Below are positions 52-7,969 of a stretch of 8,409 nucleotides of DNA, piece after piece. Each line of letters starts with the position of its first letter. The first letter of the stretch is position 1. The position numbers were made by a program, and so were the translations under genes. A model generated the notes under the pieces. That model made no database searches. It worked only from the letters and a program-made list of their open reading frames with translations, and was not told the origin of the DNA. The stretch is from Chloroflexota bacterium (GTDB lineage Bacteria; Chloroflexota; Anaerolineae; Anaerolineales; Villigracilaceae): contig JAKANW010000092.1 in NCBI GenBank assembly GCA_021823555.1, forward strand, positions 1-8,409. The letters run 5' to 3'.

Positions 52-118
52 CCTACGCAACACGGAACACGCAACACCCAACACGCCCACGTCCCTCACC
101 TCCTCCCTCCACACCCAC
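52..118 (+). other. A/C-rich, G-depleted spacer and leader
   Basis: The plus strand here is made almost only of A and C, with six G in 67 bases and recurring words such as aacacg, caacac and cccacg. It separates the stop at 49-51 from the first conserved RecQ codons. It contains no Shine-Dalgarno-like sequence. The same style recurs at 5744-5817 and at 8368-8400. Such a leader would be nearly unstructured in the RNA. Confidence 0.55.
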
Positions 119-1717
119 TTCGGCTTCGACTCCTTCCGCGCGGGACAGGAGGAGGCGATCACGAGTCTCCTCAACAAACAGCACACCCTTGCCATCATGC
201 CCACGGGCGCGGGCAAGTCGCTCATCTACCAATTCGCCGCGCTGCATCTCGACGGCCTCACCCTCGTCATCTCGCCGCTTATCGCACTGATGAAAGATCA
301 GGTGGATGCGCTCAACCGCAGAGGGATTCCCGCGACATTCATCAACGGTGCGATTCCCATCCCCGAACAACAACAACGCCTGACTCTCCTCGCGCAGGGG
401 AAATACCGACTCGTTTACGTCGCGCCCGAACGCCTCCGCAATGTGACCTTCCTCCGCTCGCTTCAATCCCTGACTTTGAGTCTGCTCGCCGTGGACGAGG
501 CTCACTGCATCTCCGAGTGGGGTCACGACTTCCGCCCCGACTACCTCCACATCGCCGACGCGCGCAAGCAGTTGGGGAATCCGCTCACCGTCGCGCTGAC
601 CGCCACCGCCACGCCGAAAGTGCAAGGCGACATCGTGCGCCTGCTCGGTCTCCCCGACTCCACGAAGCGCATCGTGACGGGCTTCAACCGTCCCAACCTG
701 ACGCTCGAAGTCAAATACACCACCGACCCCGAAGCCAAGTTCCGCGCATTGAGCGAATTGCTGCGTATGTCCGAATTCAATTCGGACTTACATGGCGCGG
801 CCCTCATCTACACAGGCACGCGCCGCGACGCGGAAGAAGTCGCCGAGTTCGTGCGCGTCGCCTGCAAGTTGCAGGCCGAGCATTATCACGCGTGTCTCCT
901 CGCCGAAGACCGCGCGCGGATTCAAGAACGCTTCATCAACGGGACGACTCCCGTCATCGTGGCGACCAACGCCTTCGGGATGGGGATTGACCGCGCCGAC
1001 GTGCGGCAGGTGATCCACTACTCCCTGCCAGGCTCGCTCGAAGCGTACTACCAGGAGGCGGGTCGCGCAGGCCGCGGCGGTCGGCCTGCGCGCGTTGTCC
1101 TGCTCTACGACCCGCAGGATCGCGCCTCGCAGGAATTTTTCATCCAAAACAGCATGGTCTCGCCTGAAGAACTGCAACTGCTCTATCGCGCCCTCGGCAA
1201 CGCGGACACCGAAATCTGGATGACCAGTGACGACTTCTCGCGCCGCACCGACCTGCACCAGGTCAAAGTGAAAGTTGGACTGGCCGAATTGGAACGCGTC
1301 GGCGCGCTCGAACATCTCGGCGACGACAACGTGCGGATGTTGCTGCGGAAGGGAAGGTGGGATCCACTCACAGTCCAGCAGGCCGCGCGTCGAAGCGAAC
1401 AACACACTGCCCATCGCTTCGAGCAACTCGACCACATGATCAATTACGCGGAGACCAACACCTGTCGCCGCCGCGTCGTCCTCAAACACTTCGGCGACTC
1501 GGCCAGCCTCGACGCGCCCGTCTGCTGCGACAACTGCGAGACGAGGAAGTCCATGCCAGAGGCAGCGAGCGCGATCTCTCTAATGCGGCCGGCACATCGA
1601 AATGCTTGCAAGTTTCCAAAAACGCCTGCGCATCTTCCCGCCAAGAAGCCTTGTCAAAATCAACTGCCAGAAACCAACAGGTCTCGTCAAGCAACATGGG
1701 ATAAACGCCGATCGTGA
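89..1717 (+). CDS. recQ: RecQ-family ATP-dependent DNA helicase, C-terminus lost
   Basis: This is a superfamily 2 3'-5' DNA helicase. In-frame sequence before the first ATG (197) encodes RecQ motif 0 (FGFDSFRAGQEEAI, 119-160), so 197 is too late. No ATG, GTG, TTG or CTG exists between the frame's stop at 32-34 and 197. ACG at 89, giving a (M)SLTSSLHTHF-like N-terminus, is the best guess at a mutated or unusual start. Numbering from 197, Walker A PTGAGKS is at 2-8, DEAH at 100-103 with the RecQ signature CISEWGHDFRPDY, GMGIDRADV at 261-269, and arginine-finger motif VI EAGRAGRGG at 287-295. A winged-helix-like stretch (about 342-390) and zinc ligands C423, C443, C444, C447 follow. Homology then stops. 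The last 55 or so codons are antisense to a primase gene and are not RecQ-like. No HRDC domain is present. The helicase core looks intact, but expression and the C-terminus are doubtful. Confidence 0.85.
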   Translation, partial: TSLTSSLHTHFGFDSFRAGQEEAITSLLNKQHTLAIMPTGAGKSLIYQFAALHLDGLTLVISPLIALMKDQVDALNRRGIPATFINGAIPIPEQQQRLTLLAQGKYRLVYVAPERLRNVTFLRSLQSLTLSLLAVDEAHCISEWGHDFRPDYLHIADARKQLGNPLTVALTATATPKVQGDIVRLLGLPDSTKRIVTGFNRPNLTLEVKYTTDPEAKFRALSELLRMSEFNSDLHGAALIYTGTRRDAEEVAEFVRVACKLQAEHYHACLLAEDRARIQERFINGTTPVIVATNAFGMGIDRADVRQVIHYSLPGSLEAYYQEAGRAGRGGRPARVVLLYDPQDRASQEFFIQNSMVSPEELQLLYRALGNADTEIWMTSDDFSRRTDLHQVKVKVGLAELERVGALEHLGDDNVRMLLRKGRWDPLTVQQAARRSEQHTAHRFEQLDHMINYAETNTCRRRVVLKHFGDSASLDAPVCCDNCETRKSMPEAASAISLMRPAHRNACKFPKTPAHLPAKKPCQNQLPETNRSRQATWDKRRS

Positions 1718-2180
1718 AATCACGCCTTGTTGTGCCTTGAGAATCACTGCCCAACAAGTGATTTCGGATAACTTCATCCGTGACCGGCAAAAATCGCCGA
1801 TGAGTACAATCTTCGCACCGGATTCTTGGCCTTTCACAAATGCCACTTACCCATTCGTTGTGGCAAACAAGGGCATAACCTTTCTTGCCCGTTTTGACAT
1901 TTTCAAAGCGCCGAGGGTATACGTCCTCACGACCTCGGAACAAACTGCGAAACAAATCAATCTTCGCCTCTTGAGGCGACTGACTGGTGACAGAAGCTGG
2001 TGATGTAGATTGCGAAATATTTTCTGCTGTTTCAAGCCACGATTTTTTGGCCTGTTTGATCTCGACAATTTCCGAAATCAACTTAACCCGACGAGCATCA
2101 AGCTTGTCTAGTTCATCCTTTTTTTCTGATAACAATCGTTCAATTTCTTCCATATTTTTCACGTCTACCTCAACTTGCAT
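1482..2180 (-). pseudogene. TOTE-type archaeo-eukaryotic primase (AEP), N-terminal fragment
   Basis: The protein starts at the ATG at 2180; a second ATG nine codons in is possible. Residues 10-47 form a charged coiled coil. From about residue 72 it matches, from memory, the AEP domain of TOTE conflict-system proteins: DLFRSLFRGREDVYPRRFE, then a probable zinc cluster (C106, C115, C122, C125, H127), FLPVTDEVIRNHL, GVYPMLLDETCWF and the catalytic DxD in AVDFDKASWRED (D174, D176), followed by VPAALERSRS. The family continues with a glycine-rich GNGxHVW segment supplying the next catalytic S/H motif, and then a superfamily 2 helicase. Here the frame instead runs into antisense recQ (residues 206-232, arginine- and serine-rich nonsense). 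The real remnant is therefore about 1566-2180, roughly 205 residues of a protein usually several times longer. It should be catalytically dead unless the truncation is an assembly error. It lies 27 bases after the stop of the minus-strand gene at 2208-3347. Confidence 0.8.
1538..1568. other. Junction between truncated recQ and truncated primase gene
   Basis: RecQ homology on the plus strand ends at the last zinc cysteine (codon 1535-1537) or a few codons later. Primase homology on the minus strand ends at ERSRS, whose last codon is 1566-1568. Neither gene continues as expected beyond this point and each reads into the antisense of the other. A deletion or rearrangement joined two 3'-truncated convergent genes here, or two contigs were mis-joined. 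No terminal repeat, target duplication or transposase is visible. Confidence 0.6.
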
Positions 2181-2207: not shown

Positions 2208-3347
2208 TCAAATCCATCCCTTCTTTTTCAACCGCTCGATAAGCGCTGTACGTTTCTTGTAACGTTCGCCTAACTCCCGCACACGAAGCGTGAAATTCGC
2301 CTGTGTTCCCTGGAATTCGGACAACTGCTGAAGTTTGCTCAACAATGCTGTAGCATCATCGTAGTTTCTGGCAGTATATCCACTGTGCAGAAGATTCTCT
2401 ATTTCCTGCCAGGTCTGCGCTTCACGTTTTGCCAGTTCCTGCATTTCAGCAATATGCTTTTTGTGTTTTTCTTCTGCCTGGCGGCGGGATTCTGCCTCTT
2501 GTAATTTCTCGGCAGTCTTGAGCAATTCGCTAAAGGTGCGCGGATTGGTCTCCACCCTTGGCAAGGATTTTTCAAATGAAAGCAGTTTTTTACGCAATAC
2601 TGTGACTGCGCCCGGCTCTGCATTGACAATTTTGAGCAGGAATTCGTCACATTCCTGGCGGGTGAGGCGGGAAATCAACGGGGCGAAATCTGCCTTTTGT
2701 AACGGAGGCGAGCTCGGGCTTCGTTCAGATGCAGCAGAGATCAGAAACGAATCAATCTCAAAGAAGTCGGCAAAAGCTTTGAGCGGCGGAGTCAGTTGTT
2801 TTAGTCCGGCAGGTAATGGTGGTTCAGGATCGTTGTAAAAGCTGTCGGGGTCATCCTCGTCTTCATCGTAATTACCGGACTCCAGGCTCATCGCTTTGAG
2901 CCAAGCGAGGTACAGAGCACGGTAATCGCCTTGAAGGATATCATCCCGGAGGCGAGCCAGCGTAGAAAGCAAACCGCGCTCCTCGATCCAATCGTCGAAG
3001 CCTTCTTCTTCGCTCATTTCGAATTCCAGCACTTGAACATCGCCGACGGGTTCGATGTGGACGTGATATTCATCGCAGTAGCGTTCAATGGCGTCAACAT
3101 CTACCAATCCCTTCGGGAAACGGAACGCCAATCGGCGCGTGCCCCAGTTCGCGATGTAAAGATGAGCATCGAAATATTTCGCCAGCACCTTAAGGGGGTC
3201 ATGCTTGAAATCACCCCAGTTGTAGGTAACAATCGCCTGGCTGGATGTCACATCAATATGGCTGGAAAGACCGTTCACCTCCGCTTGCTCGGCAGCGGTC
3301 AGCGGGCGTTCAAGGGTTTGCCATTCGTAATATTGATATTCACTCAT
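2208..3347 (-). CDS. Conserved hypothetical protein, first gene of the primase operon
   Basis: This is a complete 379-residue protein starting with MSEYQYYEW. That opening, with the following WGDFKHDP and YIANWGTRRLAFRFPK (residues 44-79), is one I recognise from a widespread bacterial family of unknown function, but I know no assigned activity. Residues 1-155 look like a compact alpha/beta domain. Residues 159-175 are a very acidic linker (YDEDEDDPDSFYNDPE). Residues 182-265 are helical, and 270-379 form a long charged coiled coil ending in a basic tail (ERLKKKGWI). There is no signal peptide or membrane segment, so it is probably cytoplasmic. Nothing catalytic is evident; a scaffold or nucleic-acid adaptor role is only a guess. 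The start has just a weak AGG about eight bases upstream. The ATG is preceded by a plausible promoter (-10 at 3380-3385). The next gene, the TOTE primase fragment, follows after 27 bases and is probably co-transcribed. Confidence 0.85.
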   Translation of the reverse strand: MSEYQYYEWQTLERPLTAAEQAEVNGLSSHIDVTSSQAIVTYNWGDFKHDPLKVLAKYFDAHLYIANWGTRRLAFRFPKGLVDVDAIERYCDEYHVHIEPVGDVQVLEFEMSEEEGFDDWIEERGLLSTLARLRDDILQGDYRALYLAWLKAMSLESGNYDEDEDDPDSFYNDPEPPLPAGLKQLTPPLKAFADFFEIDSFLISAASERSPSSPPLQKADFAPLISRLTRQECDEFLLKIVNAEPGAVTVLRKKLLSFEKSLPRVETNPRTFSELLKTAEKLQEAESRRQAEEKHKKHIAEMQELAKREAQTWQEIENLLHSGYTARNYDDATALLSKLQQLSEFQGTQANFTLRVRELGERYKKRTALIERLKKKGWI

Positions 3348-3595: not shown

Positions 3596-5686
3596 ATGGA
3601 AAACCGTATCTATAAACAACACACCCTTGATCTCCTGCGCGCCATGCTTGGCGAAGGAGCAGACTTTCGTCCCGGTCAATGGGAAGCGATCGAAGCAGTT
3701 GCCATTCAGAAAAAGCGTGCGCTCGTTGTGCAGCGCACGGGATGGGGGAAGAGCCTCATATATTTTCTCGCCACGAAGTTATTGCGCGAGCAGGGCGCGG
3801 GACCTACCCTGCTCATCAGCCCTCTGCTCTCGCTTATGCGGAATCAAATTGACATGGCGGCACGCATCGGTATCCACGCGCATACCATCCACAGCGCGAA
3901 CCGCGAAGAGTGGGATTCAGTCGAAGCAGCGCTCAAGGAAAACGCCTGTGATGTACTGCTCATCTCGCCAGAGCGATTGAACAACGAGCGTTTTCTGGAA
4001 TCCGTTCTGCCTGGCATGGCAGGTCGGATTGGCCTGTTCGTTGTGGATGAGGCACACTGCATTTCTGATTGGGGACATGACTTCCGCCCTGACTACCGCC
4101 GCATCGTCCGTATTCTCAAAATGCTTCCCAAAAGCGCGCCCGTTCTGGGAACAACTGCTACTGCTAACAATCGCGTCGTAGCAGACATTCAAGCGCAACT
4201 CGGCGATGGCTTGCTCGTTCTGCGCGGCACACTCACGCGCGATTCCCTGCGTCTGCAAACTGTTATACTCGCCAATCAAAGCGAACGGCTGGCATGGCTG
4301 GTGGAAAACCTGCCTAAATTTCCAGGCAGTGGAATTATTTACTGTCTCACGGTTCCCGATACTGAACGTGTAACGGGCTGGCTCAAGCAAAAGGGATTCT
4401 CCGCCGAAGCCTATCATGCGGGCGATGACAATACCCTCGACCGCCCCGCCCTCGAACAATCCTTCCTTAATAATGAAGTAAAAATCCTTGTTGCCACAGT
4501 CGCTCTCGGCATGGGTTTCGACAAACCCGATATCGGCTACGTGATTCACTTTCAGCGTCCTGGCTCCGTCATAGCCTATTATCAGCAAGTCGGGCGCGCG
4601 GGTCGTGCGGTGGAACGGGCTTACGGCATCCTGCTCAGCGGCGCAGAAGATGATGAAATTCAGGATTACTTCATCAACTCCGCTTTTCCCAGCGTTGAAA
4701 CGATGAATCAGATCCTCGGCGCGCTCGAAAAAACCGAAGGACTCCCCATCAATGATATTCTCGCCCGCGTCAATGTTAGCCGCAATATGCTCGATAAAGC
4801 GCTTAAACTGCTCGAGGTGGACGGCGCAATCAGCACAGCCTTTGAAAATCGCAAAACGGTCCACTTTCGCACGCCCAATCCCTGGCATCCCGACATCGAA
4901 CGCATCGAGCATGTCACCAACCAGCGCCGCGCAGAGCAGAGCCAAATGCAAGCCTACATGTCGCACACGGGTTGTCTCATGGAATTTCTGCAATGCGCGC
5001 TCGATGACACACATCCCCAACCCTGCGGGCGCTGCGCCAATTGCCGCGGCAAAGGCTTGCCGTCCACGGTTTCGCGTGAACTGGTTATCGAAGCCGAAAA
5101 CTATCTCAAGGGTGCATCCATTCCTATTGCGCCGCGTCTTATGTTCCCCGCGGGCATCTTCCCCGACCACAAACGCAAAATTCCCCCCGAACTTCTCAAC
5201 GAAACGGGACGTTCACTGTGTTATTATGGCGACGCGGGGTGGGGCACGCTGGTGCGCACGGGCAAGTACGAGCAGAATCATTTTTCGGATGAACTCGTGG
5301 AGGCCGCCGCGCGTTTAATCAGCGAGTGGAAGCCCGAACCTTTTCCCGTTTGGATGACAGCGATTCCGTCTCGACGCCACCCCGAGCTTGTTCGCCGTTT
5401 CGCCGAGCGTTTATCCACCCGAATCGGAATCCTGTTTAAACCCGTCCTTGTCCGCATCTCTGACGCCCCGCAACAAAAGACCATGCAAAACAGTTCGATG
5501 CAAGCCAACAATGTCGTGAACACCCTCAGCATCGCAGGCGACATTCCAAATACACCTGTCCTGCTTGTAGATGACATCCTCGACTCTGGCTGGACCTTGA
5601 CCATGGCAGGCTGGTTGTTACGTACTCATGGTTGTGGACCAGTCTACCCATTTACCCTGGCGCAAGCCACCGCGAGGAATACATAA
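3596..5686 (+). CDS. RecQ helicase fused to a ComF-like phosphoribosyltransferase
   Basis: This is an intact 696-residue two-part enzyme. The N-terminal part is a RecQ helicase: motif 0 FRPGQ at 24-28, Walker A TGWGKS at 48-53, DEAH at 151-154 within VVDEAHCISDWGHDFRPDY, TTATA at 186-190, GMGFDKPDI at 305-313 and motif VI QQVGRAGR at 330-337. A winged-helix-like stretch (about 384-425) precedes zinc ligands C460, C477, C480, C483, with exactly the C-x16-C-x2-C-x2-C spacing of E. coli RecQ. Instead of HRDC, residues about 495-696 form a type I phosphoribosyltransferase domain. This has IPSRRHPEL (590-598), a QNSSMQANNV segment like the ComF signature, and the PRPP loop VLLVDDILDSGWTL (655-668, D659/D660, S664-G665). 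The first part should unwind DNA with a 3'-5' polarity; the substrate of the second is unknown. The ATG lacks a Shine-Dalgarno sequence and follows an A/C-rich stretch. The DprA-like gene starts 131 bases after its stop and is probably its partner. Function in immunity or DNA uptake/repair is inferred from context. Confidence 0.92.
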   Translation: MENRIYKQHTLDLLRAMLGEGADFRPGQWEAIEAVAIQKKRALVVQRTGWGKSLIYFLATKLLREQGAGPTLLISPLLSLMRNQIDMAARIGIHAHTIHSANREEWDSVEAALKENACDVLLISPERLNNERFLESVLPGMAGRIGLFVVDEAHCISDWGHDFRPDYRRIVRILKMLPKSAPVLGTTATANNRVVADIQAQLGDGLLVLRGTLTRDSLRLQTVILANQSERLAWLVENLPKFPGSGIIYCLTVPDTERVTGWLKQKGFSAEAYHAGDDNTLDRPALEQSFLNNEVKILVATVALGMGFDKPDIGYVIHFQRPGSVIAYYQQVGRAGRAVERAYGILLSGAEDDEIQDYFINSAFPSVETMNQILGALEKTEGLPINDILARVNVSRNMLDKALKLLEVDGAISTAFENRKTVHFRTPNPWHPDIERIEHVTNQRRAEQSQMQAYMSHTGCLMEFLQCALDDTHPQPCGRCANCRGKGLPSTVSRELVIEAENYLKGASIPIAPRLMFPAGIFPDHKRKIPPELLNETGRSLCYYGDAGWGTLVRTGKYEQNHFSDELVEAAARLISEWKPEPFPVWMTAIPSRRHPELVRRFAERLSTRIGILFKPVLVRISDAPQQKTMQNSSMQANNVVNTLSIAGDIPNTPVLLVDDILDSGWTLTMAGWLLRTHGCGPVYPFTLAQATARNT

Positions 5687-5690
5687 GAAG

Positions 5691-5743
5691 GTAGACAGGT
5701 AAACAGAAAACGGAACACGGAAAAAGTAAACAAGTAGACAGGT
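5691..5743 (+). repeat. Direct repeat gtagacaggt, two copies 43 bases apart
   Basis: The decamer gtagacaggt occurs at 5691-5700 and again at 5734-5743. The flanks are similar (aaac shortly after each copy), and cggaacacgg lies between them. The repeat sits in the A/C-rich spacer and looks like low-complexity intergenic drift or slippage rather than a mobile element. Confidence 0.6.
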
Positions 5744-5768
5744 TCAAACGAACACTTACCACGCACCA

Positions 5769-5816
5769 CACGACTAATTGACCACGTGACCATACGACTA
5801 CACAACCACGCGACCA
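5769..5816 (+). repeat. Imperfect 24-base tandem duplication before dprA
   Basis: Two 24-base units lie back to back at 5769-5792 and 5793-5816. Both contain acgacta near the start and ccacg(t/c)gacca at the end; the middles differ. The second unit ends one base before the dprA start codon, so the repeat forms the immediate leader of that gene. Confidence 0.6.
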
Positions 5817-5817
5817 A

Positions 5818-6792
5818 ATGACCCTCACTCCCGACTCCCAAGCTATCCTTTTGCTCTGCTCCCATCTGGGACTTCCCTCCGAGCCAGAGTTTCCGCCATT
5901 GACCTTGCGAGAATGGAATCCCTTTGTGCGCAAAATGCAAGCCGCCTCCTTTCGCCCCGCGGATTTGCTTGATCTCTCCCATGCGGATTTACAGAACATA
6001 CTCCACCTCTCAACGGAACACGCAACGCGCATCACACATTTACTGGAGCGCAGTGGCTCGCTGGCGATCGCCCTCGAGCGACTGGAAAATCTCGGCATTC
6101 ATCCTCTCACCCGCGCAGACAAGGACTACCCTGAAAAGTACCGCCAGCGATTGAAAGACTCCGCGCCGGCTGTTTTATTCTATGCAGGCGAAAAAGCATT
6201 GCTCGGTCAACCTGGAATTGCGGTCGTTGGCTCTCGTCATCTCGACGAGGCGGGACAGGAATGTGCGCGCTTCGTCGGCAACGCATGTGGACTCTCTGGC
6301 ATGGTTTTATATTCAGGCGGCGCGAAGGGCGTGGACACCATTGGCATGGAGTCTGCACTCGAAGCGCGCGGAACAGCCGTCGGCGTGCTGGCGGATAGTT
6401 TGGAGCGAACAGTTCGAGGTCCGAAAGAAGCGTTGAGTCGGGGAGATTTATGCCTGGCCACGCCGTACAGTCCAAACGCAGGATTCTCCGTCGGCGCGGC
6501 GATGGGTCGCAATCGTTTGATTTACACGCTGGCAGATTACGCGATCGTCGTTGCCTCGGACGCGGAAACGGGCGGCACATGGGCAGGCGCAACCGAGGCG
6601 CTCAGAAACCGTTGGATCCCTGTCTTTGTTTTGGAGCATGAACAAATGCCCGAAGGAAATCAACTATTGATACAGAGAGGCGCATTGCCATTCCCACATC
6701 CATTCAGGGATGCACCCGTCAAGTTACCTGAATGGTTTAAGGAGAAAGCGGCAACCTTACCTGCGTCACCAAGCCAGCCGAGTTTGTTTTGA
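5818..6792 (+). CDS. DprA/Smf-family SLOG protein
   Basis: This intact 324-residue protein belongs to the DprA family, whose classic members bind single-stranded DNA and load RecA during transformation. A helical N-terminal part (about 1-95, with HhH-like LSHADLQNILHLS) leads into the Rossmann/SLOG domain: PAVLFYAG (117-124), GIAVVGSR (133-140), SGGAKGVDTIGMESAL (166-181), GAAMGRNRLIYTLAD (226-240, with the conserved RNR) and VASDAETGGTWAGATEAL (245-262). The classic C-terminal winged helix is missing. Instead the chain ends SPSQPSLF, which resembles a sliding-clamp-binding peptide (QxSLF). The ATG has no Shine-Dalgarno sequence. The gene follows the RecQ-PRTase gene on the same strand, and the pair is probably one operon. 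In this setting it is more likely a specialised partner of the helicase than the housekeeping DprA, so no gene symbol is given. Confidence 0.88.
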   Translation: MTLTPDSQAILLLCSHLGLPSEPEFPPLTLREWNPFVRKMQAASFRPADLLDLSHADLQNILHLSTEHATRITHLLERSGSLAIALERLENLGIHPLTRADKDYPEKYRQRLKDSAPAVLFYAGEKALLGQPGIAVVGSRHLDEAGQECARFVGNACGLSGMVLYSGGAKGVDTIGMESALEARGTAVGVLADSLERTVRGPKEALSRGDLCLATPYSPNAGFSVGAAMGRNRLIYTLADYAIVVASDAETGGTWAGATEALRNRWIPVFVLEHEQMPEGNQLLIQRGALPFPHPFRDAPVKLPEWFKEKAATLPASPSQPSLF

Positions 6793-6806: not shown

Positions 6807-7079
6807 TCACCCAGCTTGCCAGCGTGCCAATACGCTATCAATCCCATCCTGCACTTCGGCACGCGCATCCCAGCTTCCAACAGACTCTTCATCGGGGACG
6901 ATGTATAGCGTTACCTTCTCTTTCCTTTTCAGGTCGTGTCATAGCCAACTCCTTCTCCCTTTTATTGGGAGGCCATCCGCCAGTTCTCTTGAAGTTAAGA
7001 TACTCTTCGAAACCATGCAGGTCAGCAAGAGTTCCCGATGGCAGATGGAGTCTGGTATCAACTTTCGATTGTCAAACAT
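6807..7079 (-). pseudogene. Small apparently frameshifted gene downstream of the addA remnant
   Basis: No single frame is open through this stretch, yet successive frames look coding. The addA stop at 7081-7079 overlaps an ATG at 7079 (TGATG) that opens a 46-codon frame, MFDNRKLIPDS, ending at 6939. A second frame contains LADLHGFEEYLNFKRTGGW followed by NKREKELAMTRPEKERE and passes through the ATG at 6942. A third frame continues as KVTLYIVPDEESVGSW and ends DSVLARWQAG with a TGA at 6809-6807. The last two fit together if one base is extra: 6807-6942 is 136 bases. I do not recognise the family. It could be a decayed small gene, or two tiny genes with overlapping stops and starts. It ends 14 bases from the convergent dprA stop. 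Confidence 0.3.
6949..6954 (-). promoter_or_regulatory. Strong Shine-Dalgarno site before the ATG at 6942
   Basis: The minus strand reads AAGGAG, then six bases (ttggct), then ATG at 6942-6940. This is the best ribosome binding site in the window, where most genes have none. It suggests that translation once began here, even though the frame from this ATG now stops after 17 codons. Confidence 0.45.
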
Positions 7080-7969
7080 CAGGAGGCGTTTGAGTCCATA
7101 TCATGGACTTTCACTTCACCTTTTACATTCAGGAAAACCAGCCGCGTTTTTGCCTGGACCCCAAGCTGGGTCGCCGCGGCCTGGGTATAGCGCGCCACCT
7201 GGCGGTCATGCCCCGCGCGGCGGATGGTTTCACGCGCTTCCTCCTCCGAGCGGACTTCGTCAGTTTTGAAGTCTATGATGCACCAGCCTGAAGCGTTACG
7301 GTAGAGCAAATCCATGATGTCGCGTCCATCAGGCAGATCGTAGCGGACTTTGGGATGGTCGGTCAACAGGCGCGCGGTGAGTCCTTCGAGATCGTCGAAG
7401 TCGAGGCGCGAGGCGTGGTGCTCGTCTTTGAGACGCTGGTATTCGAGGAGAGTCTGGCCGAGCAGGCGATGGACGGCAGGGAGGCGCGCGGCAAGTTGTT
7501 CATCCAGCGCGAAGCGGGATTTTTCGGCGAGGAATTTGAGATGATCATCGTAAATGTCGCGCAAGCCGCTCATCGCGACACGGACGGTTTCGAGGTTGTC
7601 CCAATTACTCTTTTGTCCCTGCGTGGAGATGGCTTTGCGGAGGGCGGTCAGATTGATAAGAACATCATCCCAATTTTGCGCGGCGCGAGCGGATTGGATT
7701 TCATTCCAACGCGCGAGGACGGATTGGCGCACCAGCTCGAGTTTGTCTTCGGGCGCGGGCTCGGCGGCGAGCGCGGGGACAAACGAGGCGAGCGACTGGA
7801 AGCCTTCGGAGTCCATCAGGTGAAGTTGCGGGAGTCCTTCGGTGAAATGTTCGGAGAGCGCGGCTTCGACGGCGGGACGCAACTCCGCGGGCGCGTTCGC
7901 GCCGCCGTTCGATTTGTTCCTGGATATCAGTGGGCATGGGGGACTCCGCTGGAATTGCGGATGAGACAA
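7079..7969 (-). pseudogene. AddA/RecB-like helicase-nuclease, internally deleted remnant
   Basis: The open frame encodes pieces of an UvrD-family helicase with a C-terminal RecB-type nuclease. Going downstream, residues from AELRPAVEAALSEHF to LLEYQRLKDEHHASRLDF resemble the 1B region of AddA and end in the family's DFDDLEGL. In AddA this is followed by the VDEFQDT Walker B motif. Here LTDHPKVR switches directly to YDLPDGRDIMDLLYR and the nuclease core WCIIDFKTDEV (the D-x-K pair) and RQVARYTQA (the Q-x3-Y motif). Motifs II-VI, several hundred residues, are missing, as are Walker A and the start. The frame opens at a TTG at 7969, but its first 25 or so residues look like non-coding frame. A better start, ATG at 7937 with GGAG six bases upstream, reads MPTDIQEQIERRRERA in another frame. 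The product cannot be a helicase, and the nuclease part also lacks its upstream histidine motif. A perfect -10 box lies upstream. Confidence 0.75.
7935..7947 (-). promoter_or_regulatory. Ribosome binding site and ATG start of the original gene
   Basis: On the minus strand GGAG is followed by six bases (tccccc) and ATG at 7937-7935. This is a normal spacing. The frame from this ATG (MPTDIQEQIER) is out of phase with the AddA-like frame, so the original gene and the present addA remnant appear to be joined by a frame-changing deletion near 7895-7910. Confidence 0.45.

Follow-up and report, generated by a model that had tools for sequence, protein, structure and literature searches.

Two adjacent genes in an 8,409-nucleotide stretch of a Chloroflexota (probably Anaerolineae) bacterial contig (the window) are, judged by their sequences, an intact copy of PsyrTA (alias RqlHI), a toxin-antitoxin and anti-phage pair that has already been described (Table 1). 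As a member of this family the locus itself is ordinary; any novelty may lie in a conserved antitoxin tail, which resembles a hook for the sliding clamp of DNA replication. We think it very probable that the two genes form a complete module in which a phosphoribosyltransferase (PRTase) toxin, PsyrT, is restrained by PsyrA and released during phage replication. An earlier sequence-only reading had called the pair the best candidate here for an undescribed system, and knew of no experimental account of it. Neither statement survives, as the pair is a named PADLOC model that was described as psyrTA (Sberro 2013, as cited), and the RqlHI paper of 2015 (PMC4670107) describes PRTase-dependent toxicity and genotoxicity, antitoxin action, physical interaction and an operon for the E. 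coli homologue. The PADLOC profiles and the RqlHI paper together rule out an undescribed system.

Table 1. Features of the psyrT-psyrA locus, in window coordinates
Feature	Position	Strand	Evidence
psyrT (rqlH-like), 696 aa; helicase core of RecQ type, zinc module, ComF-like phosphoribosyltransferase at the C-terminus	3596..5686	+	ORF, domain and PADLOC matches, E. coli identity
Walker A QRTGWGKS, residues 46-53	3731..3754	+	K52 in 79/79 readable relatives
DEAH box, residues 151-154	4046..4057	+	D151 and E152 in 80/80 relatives
Zinc cysteines C460, C477, C480, C483	4973..5044	+	Sequence; conservation among relatives
C-terminal region, residues 491-696, modelled PRTase fold	5066..5683	+	Mean pLDDT 93.1; structure matches
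PRPP loop VLLVDDILDSGWTL, residues 655-668, contains D663	5558..5599	+	Sequence; conservation among relatives
Spacer, 131 nt, A/C-rich, short repeats	5687..5817	.	Sequence; compared with 4 close relatives
psyrA (rqlI-like), 324 aa; antitoxin of the DprA family, lacking the C-terminal extension that long forms have	5818..6792	+	ORF, domain and PADLOC matches, E. coli identity
DprA Rossmann/SLOG domain, residues 89-289	6082..6684	+	PF02481 2.6e-33; fold matches
QPSLF, candidate sliding-clamp-binding motif, residues 320-324 at the PsyrA C-terminus	6775..6789	+	Sequence; tail without predicted secondary structure

Both reading frames are complete, with psyrT lying upstream of psyrA on the same strand. 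Against the PADLOC profile for PsyrT the first protein scored 923.5 bits (1.9e-278; residues 7-693 on positions 5-686 of 689), and the second scored 343 bits against the PsyrA profile (6.4e-103), a match that covers only profile positions 1-310 of 398. The E. coli PsyrTA-family pair, to which the window's proteins are 46% (PsyrT) and 37% (PsyrA) identical, scored 1018.9 and 576.8 bits on the two profiles. The RecQ core, zinc spacing, PRPP loop and same-strand DprA-family gene 131 nt further on, all remarked upon in the sequence-only reading, were confirmed by ORFs, domain matches and residues. In all four of the close relatives read, the two genes overlap in an ATGA that joins the stop of psyrT to the start of psyrA, and the window has the spacer instead, an interruption that was counted against the PsyrTA reading. 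No promoter was found in the spacer, the scanned region being no richer in promoters than its own shuffles, and an Rfam scan and a tRNA scan gave no matches.

The pairing recurs in other bacteria, as had been supposed: it is found across many phyla, and 62 of 80 relatives carry psyrA downstream on the same strand, which is far beyond chance, with nine further relatives having a solo PsyrT and nine lying near contig ends. PsyrT and PsyrA distances correlate (r 0.896 over 60 loci, a value reached by 0 of 2000 Mantel permutations), and the partial r with housekeeping-DprA distance removed is also 0.896 (27 genomes, taking in 27 of 29 housekeeping loci); the two genes are co-inherited. The partner is not always needed, because PsyrT is solo in 9/80 relatives and D663 is kept in seven of these nine; RqlH is reported without RqlI in 55.3% of strains (PMC4670107). 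Decay of the PRTase in loci without PsyrA was not clearly seen, D663 being kept in 7/9 solo against 55/60 readable paired loci. The solo relatives were themselves counted against the PsyrTA reading.

Within PsyrT, domain matches were obtained to DEAD (E 2e-24), Helicase_C (9.5e-16) and Pribosyltran (1.1e-7, residues 602-680); RecQ_Zn_bind fell under its cut-off (22.4 of 25 bits), and neither RQC nor HRDC was listed at E 0.01. The zinc cysteines follow the spacing C460-x16-C477-x2-C480-x2-C483, which we take to be that of E. coli RecQ. C460, C477 and C480 are each retained in only 47/62 paired relatives (9/9 solo, 9/9 contig-edge), so the zinc cysteines are not essential to the PsyrT family; C483 is retained in 45/62, 8/9 and 8/9, respectively, and the 14 paired loci that lack every one of the four make up exactly one clade of the PsyrA tree (support 100/99). 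The top solved match of the C-terminal model is H. pylori ComF (7p0h, E 1.9e-5), which together with the PRPP loop makes the earlier label 'ComF-type' a fair one, and the model also matches ShosT with PRPP-Mg (8zvc, rank 12) and ShosT 8zvd. The PRPP loop ends in DSGWT, most relatives having DS(G/R)WT. The residues that alter RqlH behaviour when changed (a helicase K and D, and D663 of the PRPP loop) are present in the window's PsyrT as K52, D151 and D663, the last with a number identical to that of the residue changed in RqlH D663A; this substitution, or deletion of the PRTase, abolishes toxicity (PMC4670107).

PsyrA matched the DNA_processg_A domain at E 2.6e-33 and also SLOG cluster 4, at E 4.5e-7, and the best solved fold matches of its model are DprA 3uqz and ShosA 8zva. 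Against the housekeeping DprA profile TIGR00732 it scored 85 bits, below the cut-off of 191.15. In the genomes of relatives PsyrA is distinct from housekeeping DprA, in line with the phylogenetic comparison that the earlier reading had proposed: 61 PsyrA rows split from 10 housekeeping rows with support 100/100 (the 10 being drawn from 36 candidate loci, with duplicates of the same gene and a 200-residue filter removing the rest), and 38 of 40 pair-bearing genomes hold another DprA match besides PsyrA. Of the two outcomes that the earlier reading named as refuting it, a lack of conserved adjacency was not seen, and grouping with an organism's only housekeeping DprA was not seen in the genomes of relatives. 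Removal of the HTH leaves RqlI active (PMC4670107).

Occurrence is patchy: of 251 genomes from the order at least 16 were positive (at least 18 of 251 in a second count), and PsyrA was found in at least 32 of 301 from the phylum, these being lower bounds because only the first few candidates per genome were scored. A clade-wide housekeeping gene had been suspected because, among the matches listed, organism-named homologues were nearly all from Chloroflexota, and it is ruled out by this patchiness. Viral carriage was also rejected: viral_contigs yielded 5 loci, two of them near full length, and phages yielded no matches at E 1e-80; plasmid records numbered 13 at E 1e-100. The earlier reading had proposed checking whether such loci sit in defence islands; the relatives' PsyrTA is set among defence genes, since neighbours at 16 loci (84 proteins) matched 132 PADLOC families, against 3 for 16 control loci in the same genomes (129 proteins). 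One E. coli copy sits within a type I restriction operon, and the window's pair is flanked by truncated TOTE-primase, RecQ and AddA-like pieces.

By homology, PsyrT would be a RecQ-like helicase joined to a phosphoribosyltransferase that uses PRPP and is toxic unless held in check, and PsyrA the DprA-like partner that restrains it. The restraint would then be relieved by events during phage replication, whether abnormal ssDNA, complexes of replication proteins or the loss of host functions, and the freed transferase would damage the nucleotide pool or DNA so that the infected cell is stopped, while the QPSLF tail would dock on the sliding clamp and bring the complex to replication forks. The coupling of DNA status to a nucleotide reaction suggested earlier is thus plausible, as a PRPP reaction. 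Direct support here extends to the identity of the pair, its intact catalytic motifs and co-inheritance and, in relatives, to the distinction from housekeeping DprA and the defence-gene neighbourhood; that the window's copy is active we infer. Two published observations were counted against the PsyrTA reading: in PMC12409345 a growth defect was the sole effect of expressing an E. coli PsyrTA in K-12, with no protection detected against the phages tried, and the anti-phage relatives reported in PMC9122126 and PMC12593503 are PRTase-DprA pairs.

The flexible tail that ends PsyrA carries a nearly invariant Q-P-x-L-F. The strict pattern occurs in 100 of 107 close-homologue tails, a post hoc count because the patterns were written after the tails had been read. 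A loose pattern, which includes the QLSLL-type variants that the strict one excludes, matched 48/107 diverse PsyrA but also 5/29 housekeeping DprA (3/110 and 1/30 rows, with fewer than 25 residues after the fold, were omitted), a comparison that is not a third independent set because it reuses all the earlier rows, to which the PsyrA of the window and one each from E. coli and Nostoc were added. The patterns were also applied unchanged to 47 further tails outside the first diverse set, with five already-used loci dropped and one repeated tail counted once. At the linker position an E. coli PsyrA and some housekeeping DprA have such a motif too, and there the strict pattern is not specific against housekeeping DprA. 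The clamp-binding motif is given as QL(S/D)LF in PMC9690074; QPSLF resembles it but differs at position 2. The PsyrA motif is conserved in close homologues and partly elsewhere, and the variants found across phyla (QPSLF, QLSLL, QMSLF, QLGLGL) look like clamp motifs. A Pol IV motif was read in 7/8 loci, the eighth (L203) being without the polymerase signature searched for. An SSB-like acidic tail on PsyrA was ruled out, as the tail has no acidic run.

We tentatively propose that PsyrA, and hence the PsyrTA complex, may be tethered to the sliding clamp via its C-terminal Q-x-x-L-F; the system would therefore monitor the replication fork directly, and remodelling or removal of the clamp complex by a phage would set it off. 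If so, the motifs in an E. coli PsyrA and some housekeeping DprA would mean that docking on the clamp is more widespread among DprA-family proteins than has been recognised. It is less likely, and on balance doubtful, that QPSLF instead binds PsyrT and inhibits it directly: the motif is carried by PsyrT's partner protein, and antitoxins often inhibit through disordered tails, but the cross-phylum tail variants are clamp-like and motif-like sites also occur in 5/29 housekeeping DprA. RqlH is also neutralised by RqlI 1-320, a form shortened by 80 residues at its C-terminus (PMC4670107), the motif not being mapped onto that construct. Clamp docking, if true, would explain how a DprA-family antitoxin is held at forks, the site of action of the phage SSB reported to activate the related ShosTA (PMC10732053). 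In the PsyrTA literature we found no explanation of the trigger or of how the DprA-like part connects to replication, and a clamp-binding-like antitoxin peptide, also in the E. coli homologue, makes this question directly testable.

Other readings concern the locus as a whole. The DprA fold, ComF-like PRTase and RecQ core all belong to families of DNA uptake and repair, and together with the solo PsyrT of 9/80 relatives they would suit a chromosomal repair or competence module in which PsyrT serves to unwind DNA and PsyrA, like DprA, is a loader of RecA; this is improbable given the separate DprA already present in 38/40 genomes, the patchy occurrence (at least 16/251 genomes), the defence-gene neighbours and the genotoxicity of RqlH without RqlI (PMC4670107). 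Because the neighbours are gene remnants, the pair might be inactive baggage in a decaying locus, to which the truncated flanking pieces and the intergenic spacer would both be suited, yet both ORFs are full length with catalytic motifs intact and the tail motif kept, and we regard decay as very improbable. The similarity of PsyrA to SLOG cluster 4 could point to a new system in which the SLOG protein, as maker or reader of a nucleotide signal, activates the helicase-PRTase. We give this almost no credence, as the pair belongs to a described family (PADLOC profiles, PMC4670107) and the best solved folds are DprA and ShosA, the latter reported to bind DNA (PMC12593503).

Among known systems, PsyrTA/RqlHI (PADLOC PDLC03928 and PDLC03927) agrees with the window in both proteins, their order and strand, the domain layout and the helicase and PRPP residues; the window's copy differs in that its PsyrA match follows the profile, 398 positions long, only as far as position 310, the protein ending in QPSLF, and in having a 131-nt spacer in place of the gene overlap of close relatives. 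ShosTA likewise combines a PRTase toxin with a DprA-like antitoxin, and the models match ShosA 8zva and ShosT 8zvc/8zvd, but sequence similarity is only weak (ShosT 27.3 bits, ShosA 86.6 bits) and the window's toxin is a 696-aa fusion with a RecQ core, whereas ShosT presumably has no RecQ helicase; the anti-phage PRTase-DprA relatives, too, are not known to carry the helicase. Housekeeping DprA (TIGR00732) shares the Rossmann fold of PsyrA, which nonetheless falls below that profile's cut-off, forms a separate tree group and accompanies an extra DprA in 38/40 relatives' genomes. Among solved structures the best fold match is a ComF-family phosphoribosyltransferase (7p0h, H. pylori ComF), but the window's PRTase is fused to a helicase and its PRPP loop ends in DSGWT. 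Canonical RecQ (TIGR01389) shares the helicase core and zinc spacing, but PsyrT, at 291.2 bits, stays below the cut-off of 640.2, with RQC and HRDC not listed.

The gene pair is a member of the PsyrTA family, which has been studied as RqlHI. PsyrT combines a RecQ-type helicase core with a phosphoribosyltransferase (PRTase) at residues 602-680; its zinc module scores slightly below the Pfam cut-off, and the domain search listed no RQC or HRDC domain. PsyrA, encoded 131 nt downstream on the same strand, is a DprA-family protein (PF02481, 2.6e-33) with similarity to SLOG cluster 4. With both ORFs complete and these domains present, the intact RecQ-PRTase and DprA-like module described in the sequence-only reading stands. 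On the PADLOC models, PsyrT scores 923.5 bits, with residues 7-693 aligned to profile positions 5-686 of 689; PsyrA scores 343 bits, with residues 1-311 aligned to positions 1-310 of 398. An E. coli pair reaches 1018.9 and 576.8 bits on these models and shares 46% and 37% identity, respectively, with the window pair. The belief in that reading that there was no experimental account of such a pair was wrong, since the pair has already been studied as RqlHI (PMC4670107), and Sberro et al. 2013, cited in PMC8790059 and PMC9122126, had identified it too, under the name psyrTA. Named-organism close homologues among those listed are nearly all from Chloroflexota, several from Anaerolineae, and the nearest genome locus among the matches listed is 86% identical (L006, a Chloroflexi MAG).

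Features of the window, with coordinates and strand
Feature	Position	Strand	Remarks
Short A/C-rich repeats, ACGGAACACGCAAC-like	55-86		beside the first RecQ
Second, ordinary RecQ	197-1717	+	
TOTE conflict-system primase fragment	1482-2180	-	PF22548 1.1e-47, positions 2-125 of 230
Intact 379-aa protein	2208-3347	-	
psyrT	3596-5686	+	complete ORF, 696 aa
Short A/C-rich repeats, same type	5687-5817		psyrT-psyrA gap
psyrA	5818-6792	+	complete ORF, 324 aa
Short A/C-rich repeats, same type	6010-6035		inside psyrA
AddA-like C-terminal nuclease piece	7079-7969	-	TIGR02785 positions 1162-1230 of 1234, E 1.6e-5

To tabulate adjacency, we used the best 80 of at least 586 confirmed PsyrT matches from a genome scan. 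The proposal that the pairing recurs elsewhere is borne out among these 80 relatives: a PsyrA-profile ORF lies downstream on the same strand in 62, counting two loci (L066 and L074) whose PsyrA match is only 23 and 27 bits, while 9 lack such an ORF although 1.5 kb or more of sequence follows, and 9 others are cut off too early to decide. Two of the 62 (L022, L047) have psyrT split into two frames. RqlH was reported without RqlI in 55.3% of surveyed strains (PMC4670107); PsyrT without its partner is rarer here than in that survey, in a sample biased towards the window's relatives. PsyrT and PsyrA distances correlate across 60 loci (r 0.896, reached by 0/2000 Mantel permutations), and the partial r with housekeeping-DprA distance removed is 0.896 (27 genomes). 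On an archaeal (Halanaeroarchaeum) plasmid, a PsyrT-like gene has an IS200/IS605 transposase downstream and no annotated DprA gene within the stretch covered.

Every one of the 40 pair-bearing genomes searched has a TIGR00732 match, above the curated cut-off in 35 and by a protein other than PsyrA in 38 (exceptions, G006 and G518). A tree splits PsyrA (61 rows) from housekeeping DprA (10 rows, from 36 candidate loci) with 100/100 support. The window PsyrA falls with the PsyrA rows, beside L006, so that the DprA phylogeny suggested as a check sets it apart from its relatives' housekeeping DprA; on this evidence from relatives, it does not appear to be the housekeeping protein. In one Blastocatellia MAG, a single contig carries both the PsyrTA pair and, about 7 kb away, the housekeeping DprA.

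RqlH is toxic and SOS-inducing, its toxicity is abolished by deletion of the PRTase domain or by changing D663 to alanine, and RqlI relieves that toxicity and physically interacts with RqlH (PMC4670107). ShosT, from a related PRTase-DprA pair, is reported to perturb purine metabolism through phosphoribosyltransferase and pyrophosphatase activities, and DNA binding is reported for ShosA (PMC12593503, citing Pu et al. 2025). The systems reportedly activated by T4 SSB (Gp32) include ShosTA (PMC10732053), and protection against T7 and lambda is conferred by a DprA-PRTase pair of phage P2 (PMC9122126). By analogy with RqlHI and ShosTA, the PsyrT transferase would be the toxic activity, and may be restrained by its own helicase together with PsyrA.

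Alignment with the best 80 of at least 586 relatives shows the Walker A lysine K52 in 79/79 readable rows, D151, E152, R334 and R337 each in 80/80, and D659 in 78/78 readable rows. D663, which shares its number with the residue whose change to alanine abolished RqlH toxicity, is kept in 55/60 readable paired, 7/9 solo (PsyrA-less) and 7/9 contig-edge loci. The zinc cysteines of PsyrT are dispensable, because 14 paired loci among the 80 have lost all four (L032, L038, L042, L045, L052, L054, L060, L061, L063, L064, L069, L070, L076 and L077); in the PsyrA tree these 14, and no other rows, form a single clade (support 100/99). A structure model of PsyrT residues 491-696 (pLDDT 93.1) has H. pylori ComF as its best solved match and ShosT with PRPP-Mg at rank 12. 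The window PRPP loop ends in DSGWT; most such PRPP enzymes have a loop with a TG-type ending.

Counting matches of at least 680 bits that reach the profile end, PsyrT occurs in at least 16/251 genomes of the nearest relative's order and at least 18/251 genomes sampled from its phylum, where one copy is interrupted by an internal TGA; weaker matches are interpreted as other RecQ genes or pieces of PsyrT at contig breaks. To examine neighbourhoods, 16 paired loci were picked by flank length before scanning with PADLOC at 1e-20. The suggested defence-gene surroundings were found: 84 neighbour proteins match 132 families, versus 3 families for 129 housekeeping-DprA neighbours in the same 16 genomes, and because PADLOC families overlap these are not counts of systems. 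Among 25 families listed near the pairs are type I restriction, BrxL, PglZ, JetC, JetD and HmaB; those of the control are DpdF (6 proteins), mad2 (3) and mad3 (1), with no E-value below 1e-29. The pair of E. coli strain 2/0 lies between hsdS-type and hsdR-type genes of a type I restriction locus. Counting against defence, an E. coli PsyrTA impaired growth when expressed in K-12, and no protection could be detected (PMC12409345).

The psyrA start overlaps the psyrT stop (ATGA) in all four close relatives read (L006, L008, L009, L010). The window instead has a 131-nt A/C-rich spacer with short repeats, resembling the stretch beside the first RecQ, and translational coupling has therefore probably been lost. 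That RecQ has no ATG, GTG or TTG start upstream of its Walker A methionine, its C-terminus runs into an antisense ORF, and the TOTE primase fragment collides with its end near 1560-1600; it is probably a broken copy. Profile searches gave no convincing family match for the 379-aa protein, no helicase part belonging to the AddA-like piece turned up in the remaining sequence (the window stops 440 nt beyond it), and tRNA and Rfam scans of the window gave no match.

The PsyrA tail, which ends in ...SPSQPSLF, provides a new, testable mechanistic lead in an otherwise known family: a candidate motif for binding the sliding clamp (DnaN). The bacterial clamp-binding consensus is QL(S/D)LF at the C-terminus, and much variation may be accepted (PMC9690074). 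Of 109 different 40-residue close-homologue tails, 105 have Q at -5, 100 have P at -4, 103 have L at -2 and 101 have F at -1, with positions -6, -8 and -9 widely variable. Conservation extends to further tail positions, among them -7 (P in 100 tails) and -19 (W in 97). The AlphaFold2 model of PsyrA is confident except at this end, where mean pLDDT falls to 80 over residues 311-320 and 56 over 321-324; beyond residue 311 it shows no secondary structure. Using patterns written after the tails had been seen, and counting the last 25 residues, the strict pattern occurs in 100/107 close-homologue tails, 12/58 diverse PsyrA, and 0/78 PsyrT, 0/30 housekeeping DprA and 0/271 other ORFs of the same loci; the loose pattern, which also takes QLSLL-type variants, occurs in 106/107, 25/58, 1/78, 3/30 and 4/271, respectively. 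A further 47 tails gave 8 strict and 22 loose matches (shuffles expect 0.7% and 4.7%).

The E. coli PsyrA has QPELF, aligned by BLASTP with the window QPSLF, inside a linker before its C-terminal part. Counted 20-40 residues past the Rossmann domain, the loose pattern occurs in 48/107 PsyrA (shuffles mean 3.7, most 10), or 20/46 after 60%-identity clustering (mean 1.3, most 5), and the strict in 18/107, or 8/46; more than half of diverse PsyrA lack even a loose linker motif. Housekeeping DprA linkers match loosely in 5/29 and strictly in 3/29 (L124, L137 and L114, from Vibrio and Serratia genomes, with QPSLF, QTELF and QVELPF), and because of these three the strict linker pattern does not clearly distinguish PsyrA from housekeeping DprA. 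On a 108-PsyrA tree the loose C-terminal motif (48 rows) requires 21 changes, at least 10 forced by well-supported branches, and thus comes and goes. Y-family polymerase loci of related genomes were readable in 7/8 cases and carry QL(S/D/P/E)L(F/W) in 7/7, so the lineage's clamp-binding proteins appear to rely on a motif of this kind, although its second position is L in them and P in the PsyrA tail. The limited literature searched held no report linking DprA, PsyrA or RqlI to the clamp, and neither "sliding clamp" nor "DnaN" occurs in PMC4670107. Two toxin-antitoxin systems, SocAB (PMC9690074) and RipAB (PMC12795458), are described as touching the clamp through the toxin, whereas in PsyrTA the candidate motif lies on the antitoxin.
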